Assembly: GCA_014379585.1 (NCBI GenBank)
Contig: JACMLN010000035.1
Location: forward strand, 1-42,287
Direction of reading: 5' to 3'
Source: Gloeobacterales cyanobacterium ES-bin-313
Lineage (GTDB): Bacteria > Cyanobacteriota > Cyanobacteriia > Gloeobacterales > Gloeobacteraceae
Length of the DNA stretch: 42,287 bases
In this document: piece by piece, positions 15,657 through 21,710 of the stretch
How the letters are laid out: each line of letters begins with the position of its first letter
Position numbering within the stretch: position 1 is the first letter of the stretch
Position numbers and translations under genes: made by a program
Notes under the pieces: model-generated
The model's database searches: none
Seen by the model: only the letters and a program-made list of their open reading frames with translations
Told to the model about the DNA's origin: nothing

Positions 15657-17060
15657 TCATCCCAAAGCCCACTGCTGCGCCCATTGGAGCGTTTCTGTGA
15701 CTTTTGCTTGTGCATCCGCCTCACAATAGAGACGCAGGAGTGGTTCTGTGCCACTAAATCGAATCAACAGCCAACGACCATCGGGAAGACGAAATTTGTG
15801 CCCGTCGATAGCCGTATGTTCAATCACGGGTTGACCAGCGATTTCGGTAATCAGATCTGCTTCAAGAAGGCTCAAGAGCTTTTGTTTAAATGCCTCATCA
15901 GGAAGCTTCAGATCCTTGCGGTCGTAGTAGGACGTAAATTGCAATTCGGCCTGCAACTCGGCATAAAGTGTGCTTAGATCTTTGCCCGTTTGCGCGACGA
16001 TTTCGAGTAGATAGAGAGCACAGAGCAGACCATCCCGTTCGGGCATATGGTCGCTAAAACCGATACCTCCAGACTCCTCGCCGCCAAGCATTACTTTTTC
16101 GTGAAGCATGATGTCGGCAATGTACTTGAAACCGATCGCCGTTTCTTCAACTTCAAGGCCACGGGCACGGGCAACTTTGGCGATCAAGTCAGACCCGCTG
16201 ATTGTCTTCACCACTTTCCCTGTCAATCCTCGGCGGCGCGCCAAGTGATCCACCAGCAAAGGAATCAACACCTGACAGCTCAAATAGTTGCCTTGGCCGT
16301 CAGCAGCAGCGATCCGATCCGCATCGCCATCGAGTACCAAGCCAATGGCAGGCCGATCCCCTTGGTACTGCCGCAGCGCTTTAAACAGCGGGGCGAGATA
16401 GCGGGCAATTGGCTCTGGCGGGTTGCCTCCGAAAAGCGGATCCCTTTGGTCGCGCAGTTCTTCCACGCCCCCACCAAGCAGCGTTGTCAGCCCCCCAGCA
16501 CCGACGCCGTGCATAGCATCGAGAAAAATCGCCAAATTCGCTTCTTTCAAGGCTTTTAGATCGACTTTGGTGCGCAGTTGGTCAAGATAGGCTTCCCAAG
16601 GGTCGAACATCGTCACATCCGCAGTTTTGCCCGGTGGAGCCACGAAATCTTCGTCGAGTAGTTTTTCGACAATTGCTGTCAAGTCTTGCCCTACTGAACC
16701 AGCGAAGGCTCCTTTAATCTTGATCCCTGAATAGTTAGCGGGATTATGACTGGCGGTGACGACCAAGGCACCGTGGGCACCGAGCAGTTTTGCCGCCCAG
16801 CTATAAGCCGGAGTAGGCGCTGGTCGATCCGAGAGATACACCGGGATCCCAAGACTTTGGACGGCACTGGCTACGGTCTTTGCAAAGTCTTCAGACATAA
16901 AGCGGCGGTCGTAGCCAACGACAATGCCGTTGCCTGGAAACGTATCAGCGAGCATCTTGGCTGAAGCGAGGGCAACCCGATGGACATTCTCAAACGTAAA
17001 GCTGTCAGCAATAATTGCCCGCCAGCCATCTGTCCCGAACCGAATTGTCTGCTTGCCCAT
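15657..17060 (-). CDS. Phosphoglucomutase/phosphomannomutase family protein
   Basis: Alpha-D-phosphohexomutases interconvert sugar 1- and 6-phosphates, here probably feeding glycan or cell-wall precursors. The 467-residue protein begins IRFGTDGWRAIIAD and has the phosphoserine loop TASHNPANYSGIK, the metal loop DGDADR, the sugar-binding GGEESGG and the phosphate-binding RFSGTEPLLR, so all four active-site loops are present. The start at 17060 (MGKQTIRFGTDGW) is preferred to an ATG 66 bases upstream because family members begin close to the FGTDGW motif. Whether glucose, mannose or glucosamine phosphate is used cannot be told from sequence. Confidence 0.88.
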   Translation of the reverse strand: MGKQTIRFGTDGWRAIIADSFTFENVHRVALASAKMLADTFPGNGIVVGYDRRFMSEDFAKTVASAVQSLGIPVYLSDRPAPTPAYSWAAKLLGAHGALVVTASHNPANYSGIKIKGAFAGSVGQDLTAIVEKLLDEDFVAPPGKTADVTMFDPWEAYLDQLRTKVDLKALKEANLAIFLDAMHGVGAGGLTTLLGGGVEELRDQRDPLFGGNPPEPIARYLAPLFKALRQYQGDRPAIGLVLDGDADRIAAADGQGNYLSCQVLIPLLVDHLARRRGLTGKVVKTISGSDLIAKVARARGLEVEETAIGFKYIADIMLHEKVMLGGEESGGIGFSDHMPERDGLLCALYLLEIVAQTGKDLSTLYAELQAELQFTSYYDRKDLKLPDEAFKQKLLSLLEADLITEIAGQPVIEHTAIDGHKFRLPDGRWLLIRFSGTEPLLRLYCEADAQAKVTETLQWAQQWALG

Positions 17061-19427: not shown

Positions 19428-19805
19428 ATGGGTCGCATATTTCTTTTTGCTGCCACCTTGTTAGGTGGCCTCGGAGTTGCTTTCGGCGCTTTCGGTGCCC
19501 ATGCTCTGCGCAGTCAACTTGATCCCAACGCTCTGGCGATTTTTGAAACCGCCGTGCGCTACCAGATGTATCACGCTTTAGCATTGGCGCTCGTCGCTCT
19601 CTGCTTGGATCGTCCTCACCCACCCCCGACCCTTGCGATTGCAGGCTACAGTTTCATGATTGGGACAGGGCTATTCTCTGGAAGCCTCTATGCCTTGAGC
19701 CTGACAGGCATCAAAGCTTTAGGAGCGATCACTCCCTTAGGCGGAGTTGCTTACTTGGTGGGGTGGATCTGTTTTGCCCTTGCTGCTTGGAGCTTAAAAT
19801 CCTGA
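19428..19805 (+). CDS. DUF423 membrane protein
   Basis: The 125-residue protein has four membrane segments and the DUF423 (YgdD) signatures: the opening GGLGVAFGAFGAHAL-RSQL, AVRYQMYHALALALVAL, GTGLFSGSLYALSLTG and ITPLGGVAYLVGW. The family has no firm function. The ATG at 19428 is chosen over a TTG 12 bases upstream. The stop overlaps the start of the amidotransferase gene (TGATG), so the two are co-translated. Confidence 0.85.
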   Translation: MGRIFLFAATLLGGLGVAFGAFGAHALRSQLDPNALAIFETAVRYQMYHALALALVALCLDRPHPPPTLAIAGYSFMIGTGLFSGSLYALSLTGIKALGAITPLGGVAYLVGWICFALAAWSLKS

Positions 19806-20593
19806 TGTGCCGCCTACTTGCCTACCTCGGTTCACCAATCACCGTCGATCGCTTCATCGAAAAGCCAGAACACTCTTTGATTGCTCAGAGCTATCAGCCC
19901 CGCGAGATGACGGCGGGCTTACTCAACGCTGATGGCTTCGGTCTTGGTTGGTACCATCCAGAGCGCGAAGATTTGCCCTATATCTATCGCAATACCCACC
20001 CGATTTGGAGTGATACGAACCTGGGGCACCTGACACGCTATATCGAGTCGGGCTGTGTGTTGGCCAGCGTGCGTTCAGCGACACCTGGACTACCCGTGGA
20101 TCTAAGCAACTGTCAGCCCTTTCGCCATGGCCAGATTCTTGGGCTGCACAACGGTTTTATCGATAACTTTCGCCACACCCTTTACCGCCAAATGCGCAGT
20201 GCCCTCACAGATCCGTATTACAGCCTGATTCAGGGCGTAACGGATTCAGAGCACCTGTTCGCTTACACCCTCAACCAGCAAGCAGAGCAGGGCAGTTCGT
20301 TATCAGAAGCGTTGGCACTTTCATTGCGCAATGTCATGGACTGGGCACTAGCATCAGGGGTAGGCGCTGCTTTGAACTTGATCTTCAGCGATGGTAAAAC
20401 CCTTGTTGCTTCGCGCTGTGGAACCCGTAGACCGATGCCTTCTCTTTACTGGCTCCAAGATGATCCACAGTTTCCAGAAGCAGTTTTCATCGCTTCGGAA
20501 CCGATTTTTGCCAGTGAGGGTTGGAGGTCATTCCCAGAGCAGAGTATCCTCAGTGTGGGGCAGAATCGAGAAATTCAGTTATTTCAGATTTAA
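19805..20593 (+). CDS. Class II glutamine amidotransferase, EgtC-like
   Basis: Class II (Ntn) amidotransferases use an N-terminal Cys as nucleophile. The 262-residue protein begins M-CRLLAYLG, so Cys2 is exposed once Met is removed. It also has GLLNADGFGLGWY, VLASVRSATPG, NCQPFRHG and LGLHNGFIDNF, the glutamine-binding loop. EgtC hydrolyses gamma-glutamyl-hercynylcysteine sulfoxide in ergothioneine synthesis; related cyanobacterial members may act on other gamma-glutamyl compounds. No egtB, egtD or egtA is in the window, so the EgtC label marks the family only. The start is fixed by Cys2 and the 1-base overlap with the DUF423 gene. Confidence 0.8.
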   Translation: MCRLLAYLGSPITVDRFIEKPEHSLIAQSYQPREMTAGLLNADGFGLGWYHPEREDLPYIYRNTHPIWSDTNLGHLTRYIESGCVLASVRSATPGLPVDLSNCQPFRHGQILGLHNGFIDNFRHTLYRQMRSALTDPYYSLIQGVTDSEHLFAYTLNQQAEQGSSLSEALALSLRNVMDWALASGVGAALNLIFSDGKTLVASRCGTRRPMPSLYWLQDDPQFPEAVFIASEPIFASEGWRSFPEQSILSVGQNREIQLFQI

Positions 20594-20640
20594 TCCTTGA
20601 GATGATCCCTGCAACGGGCGTACAATCTGTTGCTACCCTT

Positions 20641-20726
20641 GGGCGAGTGGCGGAATGGTAGACGCACCGGACTTAAAATCCGTTGGGGTGAGTAACCCCG
20701 TACGAGTTCGACTCTCGTCTCGCCCA
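20641..20726 (+). tRNA. tRNA-Leu (anticodon UAA), intronless
   Basis: Acceptor arms GGGCGAG (20641-20647) and CTCGCCC (20719-20725) pair fully, with discriminator A at 20726. The anticodon arm reads CCGGA-CTTAAAA-TCCGT with anticodon UAA, and the T arm ACGAG-TTCGACT-CTCGT pairs fully. A long variable arm (TTGGGGTGAGTAACCCC) identifies a class II leucine tRNA. CCA is not encoded. There is no group I intron in the anticodon, although many cyanobacteria have one there. It lies upstream of a small gene pair and a decayed copy of its own 3' part. Confidence 0.95.
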
Positions 20727-20783
20727 TTGACTTTCAGCTCTCCGCAGCGTGTCAAGATAGCGACATGAAAAAATGGAGCCAGA

Positions 20784-20978
20784 ATGGAGAAACCGCAGTC
20801 AAGGCCGACACCAGGGCAGGCGCTTACTTGCTATCACCTCTGTCGGATGCTGACAAGTTACTATCGGCCTGTCGCGCTGGTAGCAAATGATCCAAGAATT
20901 GATCGGTTGTACATCTTGGCTGGCGAAGAACTTGAGGTTTTGATTTTCCCGAATGGTGACTGGAGGATGATTCGATGA
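20784..20978 (+). CDS. DUF6888-type small protein
   Basis: The 64-residue protein matches, from memory, the small cyanobacterial family DUF6888: TPGQALTCYHLCRMLTSYYR, PVALVANDPRIDRLYILAGE, ELEVLIFPNGDWRMI. No enzymatic motif is visible. GGAG ends six bases before the ATG. Its TGA overlaps the ATG of the next gene (ATGA at 20975-20978), giving a coupled pair. Such pairs (DUF6888 with DUF6887) are frequent in cyanobacteria and their function is unknown. A toxin-antitoxin-like or mobile accessory role is inference. Confidence 0.7.
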   Translation: MEKPQSRPTPGQALTCYHLCRMLTSYYRPVALVANDPRIDRLYILAGEELEVLIFPNGDWRMIR

Positions 20979-21157
20979 GTGAACAGACCTTTAGCCAGAT
21001 GAGCGATCAAGAACTCAAGGCGTACGTTCTTGCCCACCGCTCGGATGCTGAAGCACTGCATATCTATCTATCCCGCCTTGATGAGCGTCCCGGTGAAGTT
21101 CATAAGTTTGGGGATTACTCAGCCCTCGAAAACTTATTGAAAGATCAGTCCCCCTAG
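20975..21157 (+). CDS. DUF6887-type small protein
   Basis: The 60-residue acidic protein resembles what I remember of DUF6887: FSQMSDQELKAYVLAHRSD, then EALHIYLSRLDERPG and a short C-terminal helix (DYSALENLLKDQ). It overlaps the DUF6888 gene by four bases and ends about 95 bases before a decayed tRNA-Leu fragment. Both small genes thus lie between an intact tRNA gene and its partial copy. Function unknown. Confidence 0.7.
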   Translation: MSEQTFSQMSDQELKAYVLAHRSDAEALHIYLSRLDERPGEVHKFGDYSALENLLKDQSP

Positions 21158-21252
21158 AGGATTTCCTGCGGGGCACCTCCCCAAACAATCTAGAAAAGGG
21201 ATTTTGGGCATTTCTAGCCACGCTTATAGCCACGAATATCCGTAAATTGCCT

Positions 21253-21330
21253 GTAGAGCGGATTTGGAACGGACTTAGAACCCTTGGGGTGATTCAACAC
21301 ATACAAGTTCGATTCTCATCTCGCCATTGA
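21253..21330 (+). pseudogene. Decayed 3' part of tRNA-Leu(UAA)
   Basis: This stretch follows the intact tRNA-Leu from within its D arm to its end and just beyond. Shared runs in the same order include GTAGA, GGACTTA, TTGGGGTGA, AGTTCGA, TCTCGCC and CATTGA. Mutations break the T stem (ACAAG against CTCAT) and the variable arm (the CCCC partner is lost), and one C is missing from the acceptor end. The 5' acceptor arm is absent. It is therefore not a working tRNA. It marks a past duplication, or integration at the tRNA gene, with the DUF6888/DUF6887 pair inside. Confidence 0.75.
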
Positions 21331-21333
21331 ACT

Positions 21334-21558
21334 TTAATCATCGGACACATCCTTAATCACCATCACTTCTGTCGCTTTGATCAGCATGGTGACAGGATCG
21401 CCAACGGCAAGTTTGAGATTTTCGGCTGAACGACGGGTGATCACGGCGTCGACGACTTGATCCCCGACCTGGACTGTGACTTCAGCAAGAATATCGCCGA
21501 AGTTCAGCGCAATGATGCGTCCCGGCAGTTGGTTGCGTCCACTAATCTGTTTGGGCAT
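21334..21558 (-). CDS. Molbindin / TOBE-domain protein
   Basis: The 74-residue protein is a single TOBE (Mop) domain: ISGRNQLPGRIIALNFGDI, then EVTVQVGDQVVDAVITRRSA, LKLAVGDPVTMLIKATEVMV. The SGRNQL-G start and the K-A-TEVM end are the molybdate-binding hallmarks. Such small proteins oligomerise and store or sense molybdate. The ATG at 21558 is preferred to that at 21567 because AAAGGATGG lies at proper spacing before it. No molybdate transport gene is adjacent. It ends three bases beyond the tRNA remnant. Confidence 0.8.
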   Translation of the reverse strand: MPKQISGRNQLPGRIIALNFGDILAEVTVQVGDQVVDAVITRRSAENLKLAVGDPVTMLIKATEVMVIKDVSDD

Positions 21559-21710
21559 CTTCGCCATCCTTTAAGCTATCTACAGCCTACCAAGAAGGAT
21601 TAGATAACGAGAAAAGTAACTAAGGAACTGCGGGGAAACCAGCCAAACGGGTAGCTTTTGCCTGTGCAAGCGGCGATGGTAGAATCCTGATCAATAGTAG
21701 GGTTTCGCCT

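Follow-up and report, generated by a model that had tools for sequence, protein, structure and literature searches.

The gene pair DUF6888/DUF6887, which lies beside tRNA-Leu(UAA) in the genome of Gloeobacterales cyanobacterium ES-bin-313 (Gloeobacteraceae), is a widespread cyanobacterial cassette of toxin-antitoxin-like character and a more interesting object than the probable tRNA scar that adjoins it. Comparison of its loci shows, at the level of DNA similarity, a self-contained unit of about 390 bp that spreads among cyanobacteria independently of tRNAs. To judge from sequence, the pair most likely functions as a toxin-antitoxin-like module of type II, in which DUF6888 would be the toxin, and it is a candidate new compact cyanobacterial family of this kind; a search of the literature by family name returned no paper naming DUF6888 or DUF6887. 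The truncated copy of tRNA-Leu downstream of the pair is most likely an old integration scar, which is an ordinary kind of arrangement, and the position of the pair beside this tRNA is probably incidental. To the two readings taken jointly, an integration scar at tRNA-Leu and a separate mobile toxin-antitoxin-like cassette, we give about an even chance of being right.

The window, i.e. the whole stretch of 42,287 nucleotides that was analysed, is contig C37 of a draft genome of 4.26 Mb in 198 contigs. On the forward strand the gene order is egtC, tRNA-Leu(UAA), DUF6888, DUF6887 and a worn copy of the tRNA, followed by a Mop/TOBE gene on the reverse strand. The left flanking gene egtC (19805..20593) encodes the glutamine amidotransferase of ergothioneine biosynthesis (NCBIfam TIGR03442, 321 bits). 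The intact tRNA-Leu(UAA), which has no intron, spans 20641..20727 with a start at 20640 in one call (ARAGORN; Rfam RF00005, 59.1 bits), and ARAGORN and Rfam agree in finding one intact tRNA-Leu(UAA). DUF6888 (20784..20978, 64 amino acids) and DUF6887 (20975..21157, 60 amino acids), the predicted toxin-like and antitoxin-like members, are direct members of the Pfam families PF21828 and PF21826, for which Pfam gives no function, and score well above the gathering cut-offs (79.4 bits against 27 and 62.1 bits against 24.2). An ATGA overlap joins the end of DUF6888 to the start of DUF6887, and the DUF6888 copy of the window has an ordinary ATG start. The cassette as projected from copies at other loci (blastn, 80+ loci) occupies approximately 20785..21175 on the same strand. 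The decayed tRNA-Leu 3' copy (21270..21335, forward strand, blastn) comprises the anticodon stem, the T arm, the 3' strand of the acceptor and about 8 nt past the end. Its end is abutted by the stop codon of the right flanking gene (21334..21567, reverse strand), encoding a small molybdenum-pterin-binding (Mop/TOBE) protein (Pfam PF03459; NCBIfam TIGR00638). The sequence-only reading had described an intact tRNA-Leu(UAA), two overlapping small ORFs and a mutated tRNA copy in the same orientation, and this layout was confirmed by ARAGORN, Rfam, Pfam and blastn. Promoter and terminator scans at the locus gave nothing better than shuffles.

In a phylum search of 146 genomes, 32 carried DUF6888 and 34 carried DUF6887, a single genome having as many as 11 copies; the set contains 71 intact pairs, and each protein has about 60 amino acids. 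The pair has been seen only in cyanobacteria, the survey beyond the phylum consisting of 14 control genomes; it is absent from phage records, and among plasmids four cyanobacterial records carry DUF6888 and one was found with DUF6887. When loci are compared by blastn, DNA similarity ends in many combinations at about -20 and +370 relative to the start of the DUF6888 domain, the limits by which the cassette extent of approximately 390 bp was defined. Examples of similarity limited in this way are L095/L097, L100/L116, L122/L128, L137/L140 and L154/L161, and between different families L100 and L104 are 85% identical to L116 over 380 bp only. No third conserved partner gene was found: the 119 neighbours matched 147 Pfam families, which were mixed and in many cases housekeeping, and PADLOC matches among the neighbours were dispersed, no family having more than 4 members. 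Similarity confined to the unit and the lack of a recurrent neighbour together indicate a free-standing, laterally moving cassette. At the loci L096, L115, L148 and L165 long flanks are 82-96% alike and the versions of the pair differ; these sites are in different genomes and look as if the cassette had been swapped in place. At three loci DUF6887 carries C-terminal extensions of 110-160 amino acids with no Pfam match (L112 5282-5953, L115 5369-5911 and L148 5491-6036).

Support for a toxin-antitoxin-like function comes from four results: one-sided decay of the pair, translational coupling, purifying selection on both genes and the difference in start codons described below. Every one of the 73 intact DUF6888 genes is adjoined by DUF6887 (71 intact, 2 shortened) and none stands alone, whereas 25 of the 96 intact DUF6887 genes are without an intact DUF6888, the partner being broken in 12 cases and undetected in 13. 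The one-sidedness has a Fisher P of 2.7e-5, which is indicative only, since copies that share a genome or a common descent do not count as independent. It is exemplified by the second pair of the source genome (L056 8254-8572; contig C96, approximately 16253-16571), in which DUF6887 is open and DUF6888 is damaged, lacking the N-terminal helix region. The two genes overlap in 71 of 75 pairs, by exactly 4 nt in 40, and both are under purifying selection, with dN/dS in the pairs with estimable dS of approximately 0.03-0.17 for DUF6888 and 0.05-0.25 for DUF6887; DUF6888 is the more conserved of the two proteins. Because DUF6887 starts inside the stop codon of DUF6888, both proteins would be translated from one message. 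We infer that DUF6888 would be the harmful partner, restrained through direct binding by the co-translated helical DUF6887. The earlier suggestion that the pair is possibly toxin-antitoxin-like gains from the one-sided decay, the coupling, the patchy multi-copy distribution and the mobility of the cassette.

The pair is a conserved operon of two small-protein genes with patchy distribution and mobility, as expected of type II toxin-antitoxin modules. With those of the HicAB paradigm (PMC2701414) it shares two small, co-directed and overlapping genes in patchy, multi-copy and mobile occurrence, and the tolerance of one partner alone but not of the other. It differs from them in that no RNase or other toxin fold and no HTH/RHH domain is recognised, and in that it occurs on few plasmids, is absent from phage records and is seen in cyanobacteria only. 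The DUF6887 genes that stand alone may serve other purposes, or may have partners too diverged for detection. Two of them (L210 373-618; L212 oriented 1115-1519) lie downstream of ORFs which by eye look like HepT-type and PIN-type toxins, and an exchange of partner is possible at these loci.

AlphaFold2 predicts DUF6888 with high confidence as a helix that precedes a sheet of four strands and packs on it (pLDDT 92, pTM 0.77), and the model of DUF6887 is all-helical (pLDDT 82, pTM 0.54). Foldseek returned no match with E below 0.48 for the former and no useful match for the latter, none being at E <0.001, and searching the sequences of the PDB with profiles gave weak, unconvincing matches only; one of these, to an S100-A4 construct (E 0.0076), was dismissed as it spans one short helix. 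Neither a toxin fold nor a catalytic motif or DNA-binding domain was recognised in either protein, and Pfam, NCBIfam and PADLOC gave no matches for the pair other than the DUFs themselves. Matches of the DUF6888 model to solved structures are middling, the best being MbtI (Z 6.5), followed by the C-terminal domain of phage T4 MotA (Z 5.7) and the N-terminal domain of RnlA (Z 4.8). The predicted folds reveal no function, and another kind of regulator is a serious rival to the toxin-antitoxin reading. The pair may be a two-protein unit outside the toxin-antitoxin class, e.g. a DUF6888 regulator that binds DNA or RNA polymerase together with DUF6887 as its helical cofactor. This would suit the resemblance to the double-wing domain of MotA (over 57 of the 64 residues, with an rmsd of 1.8 A), the higher conservation of DUF6888 and the fact that no toxin family is recognised. 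However, according to the tool's own warning a Z below 8 may reflect merely a common arrangement, the N-terminal domain of the RnlA toxin and MbtI score similarly to MotA, and one-sided decay and free mobility suit an addiction-type pair better. We regard the regulator as having a substantial, though minority, share of the probability, and continue to prefer a toxin-antitoxin-like module.

DUF6887 starts with ATG in 74 of 76 genes. Of 70 N-terminally complete DUF6888 genes, 31 have ATG, 14 have TTG or GTG and 25 have no canonical start, i.e. no ATG, GTG or TTG within the nine codons before the conserved domain start (L095 5880, L097 6158, L112 6122, L126 6219, L134 6207, L152 8148 and others). 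In many of these 25 an in-frame stop a few codons upstream rules out a canonical choice. ATT is found within the last three codons in 18 of the 25, against 2.2 expected (P 2e-14, a value which overstates the number of independent events because many copies are related by descent), ATT, ATC or ATA is found in 22, and in most a Shine-Dalgarno-like GGAG/GAGG/AGGA lies 5-10 nt upstream. The apparent ATT start occurs in several diverged subgroups of DUF6888. AUU is a very rare start codon. By proteogenomics, ATT and ATA starts have been seen in other genes of Nostoc PCC 7120 (PMC8557916). Non-canonical starts gated by IF3 are described for infC of E. coli (ATT) and for sigR-rsrA of Streptomyces, in which the GTC start of sigR, by way of IF3, holds the sigma factor at a lower level than its inhibitor (PMC5472188). 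By analogy with such IF3-repressed starts, an AUU start would hold translation of DUF6888 below that of the AUG-started DUF6887. In sigR-rsrA, too, it is the leading gene of a coupled pair that has the non-canonical start and whose product stays below its inhibitor; different from both known cases is the recurrence of ATT, ATC or ATA in many diverged copies of one small cyanobacterial family, and the window's own DUF6888 has ATG, IF3 control being proposed here by analogy. A tentative proposal, which we consider more doubtful than probable, is that the pair represents a toxin-antitoxin family of cyanobacteria not described before, whose toxin genes in many cases begin with AUU, AUC or AUA, so that the fidelity of translation initiation (IF3) keeps the toxin below the antitoxin. 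If real, the AUU start would be an unusual built-in means of fixing the ratio of two coupled proteins, and gene callers restricted to ATG, GTG and TTG would miss or mis-start many DUF6888 genes. On the Nostoc sp. C052 plasmid pC052_H, whose gene table is known to be incomplete, DUF6888 (L228 1501-1668) is absent from the table and the neighbouring DUF6887 is listed; an AUU start as the cause of this omission was dropped, since the copy has ATG.

The worn tRNA copy is 80.9% identical to the intact tRNA over 68 columns (21270-21335; E 3e-10 by blastn against the whole window), the next-best match in the window having an E of 1.9. Its similarity starts in the anticodon stem, on the 5' strand (tRNA base 28), and not, as had been claimed from the letters alone, at the D arm: an extension of the copy to the D arm was rejected, as the sequence 5' of the copy shows no likeness to the tRNA 5' half beyond that of shuffled DNA (P 0.67). 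At the other end the likeness extends about 8 nt past the tRNA 3' end, and farther on copy and original are not significantly similar (P 0.11). One base is missing from the copy in the CCC that precedes the discriminator. The trailer TTGAATTTCAGC lies beside tRNA-Leu in the relative G007, and the conserved trailer also adjoins the intact tRNA in the window, which is compatible with an integration scar and a simple duplication alike.

Tyrosine integrases acting at the anticodon-loop sub-site leave a fragment from the anticodon stem to the 3' end of the tRNA downstream and in the same orientation. The corrected boundary favours the island reading, because a fragment of this extent, position and orientation is the product of integration at that sub-site. 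In the Islander survey an anticodon-centred site is used by 2083 of 3919 islands, a 3' fragment is present in 3760 of 3919, and some displaced fragments show a small deletion at 3 bp 5' of the discriminator (PMC4383910), with which the base missing from the CCC run agrees in a suggestive but weak manner. Like the fragments of these islands, the copy lies downstream in the same orientation, reaches the 3' end and starts in the anticodon arm at a known crossover sub-site. Different from them is the lack of an integrase, only DUF6888 and DUF6887 being present between tRNA and fragment, the distance of about 0.6 kb from tRNA to fragment in place of 2-200 kb, and the identity of the fragment of 81%; with no integrase and so short an interval the locus fails two of the Islander filters. 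The observation of the sequence-only reading that no integrase is present was borne out: none was found among the scanned ORFs of the window, and a genome-wide search for Phage_integrase (PF00589) had no match on this contig. Approximately five well-scoring tyrosine integrases are present in the genome, all on other contigs.

The geometry of the fragment, which runs from the anticodon stem to the 3' end and lies downstream of the tRNA with its orientation kept, makes an old integration scar the most likely origin. A tyrosine integrase would have inserted an element at the anticodon loop of tRNA-Leu(UAA), displacing the 3' end, and the element would later have been lost or eroded, leaving the tRNA fragment. 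The scar is somewhat likelier than a decayed tandem duplication, in which the tRNA-Leu region would have doubled without any integrase, the second copy would have lost its 5' half and the pair would have been inserted independently. A duplication would suit the lack of an integrase on the contig, a repeat which runs about 8 nt into the trailer, a similar trailer being found by tRNA-Leu in G007, and a pair that lands alone at many non-tRNA sites. Against it, the likeness to the tRNA breaks off abruptly where the anticodon stem begins on its 5' side, the preceding sequence being at chance level, and a whole-gene copy at 81% overall identity should keep a trace of the 5' half unless it was deleted exactly there. 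We regard such a duplication as possible but rather unlikely. Improbable, in our view, is a miniature non-autonomous island, with tRNA, pair and repeat as one element, the integrase supplied in trans and the pair as cargo. The pair is bracketed exactly by tRNA and fragment, the tyrosine integrases on other contigs could act in trans, and the second pair of the genome, on contig C96, is likewise adjacent to the 3' end of a tRNA, in this case tRNA-Arg(CCG). However, the bracketed unit has no second copy in the source genome or in 38 relatives, and no displaced tRNA-Arg fragment was detected beside the C96 pair (best score 21; shuffled mean 17.9, maximum 28). The tRNA segment tested occurs in none of the viral contigs searched by exact match. 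Among 83 pair loci, inspected with flanks of approximately 6 kb as far as the contigs reached, there is no enrichment of tRNAs: only 3 have a tRNA within 1 kb, about 1-2 being expected, and these are the pair of the window, the C96 pair and one beside tRNA-Pro. Outside the source genome about one tRNA-near pair is expected from the tRNA density in the same flanks and one was seen. A repeated association of the pair with tRNA 3' ends, put forward as a check on the island, did not appear; two of the three cases belong to the source genome. Of the original alternative, a miniature island or integration scar, the scar stands as probable, its geometry being fitting; the part in which the pair is cargo of a tRNA-targeted island is not supported, since the pair has no link to tRNAs and the mobile unit, about 390 bp long, carries no tRNA repeat.

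In the nearest relative, G002, egtC and egtD are followed by tRNA-Leu(UAA), which is accompanied by neither the pair nor the repeat; the TOBE gene lies on a different contig, and the right flank differs from that of the window. The left flank is accordingly conserved in part and the right flank is not. The egtD-like gene of G002 (L053 3914-4933) separates egtC from tRNA-Leu; in the window the latter two are direct neighbours, egtC first, and the 42 kb contain no egtD. Among egtC relatives, 17 loci were found and 16 scanned, and none had a tRNA-Leu within the stretch of flank retrieved. An empty counterpart of the G004 pair locus was also considered and was dropped, since the neighbours of the pair there belong to multicopy families and no clear orthologous site could be assigned. 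The tRNA-Leu(UAA) gene is uninterrupted in the genome of the window and in Gloeobacterales relatives, and in many other cyanobacteria the tRNA-Leu matches end at tRNA base 36-45. Ends at these bases would fit the presence, in those genes, of the known group I intron of the anticodon loop.
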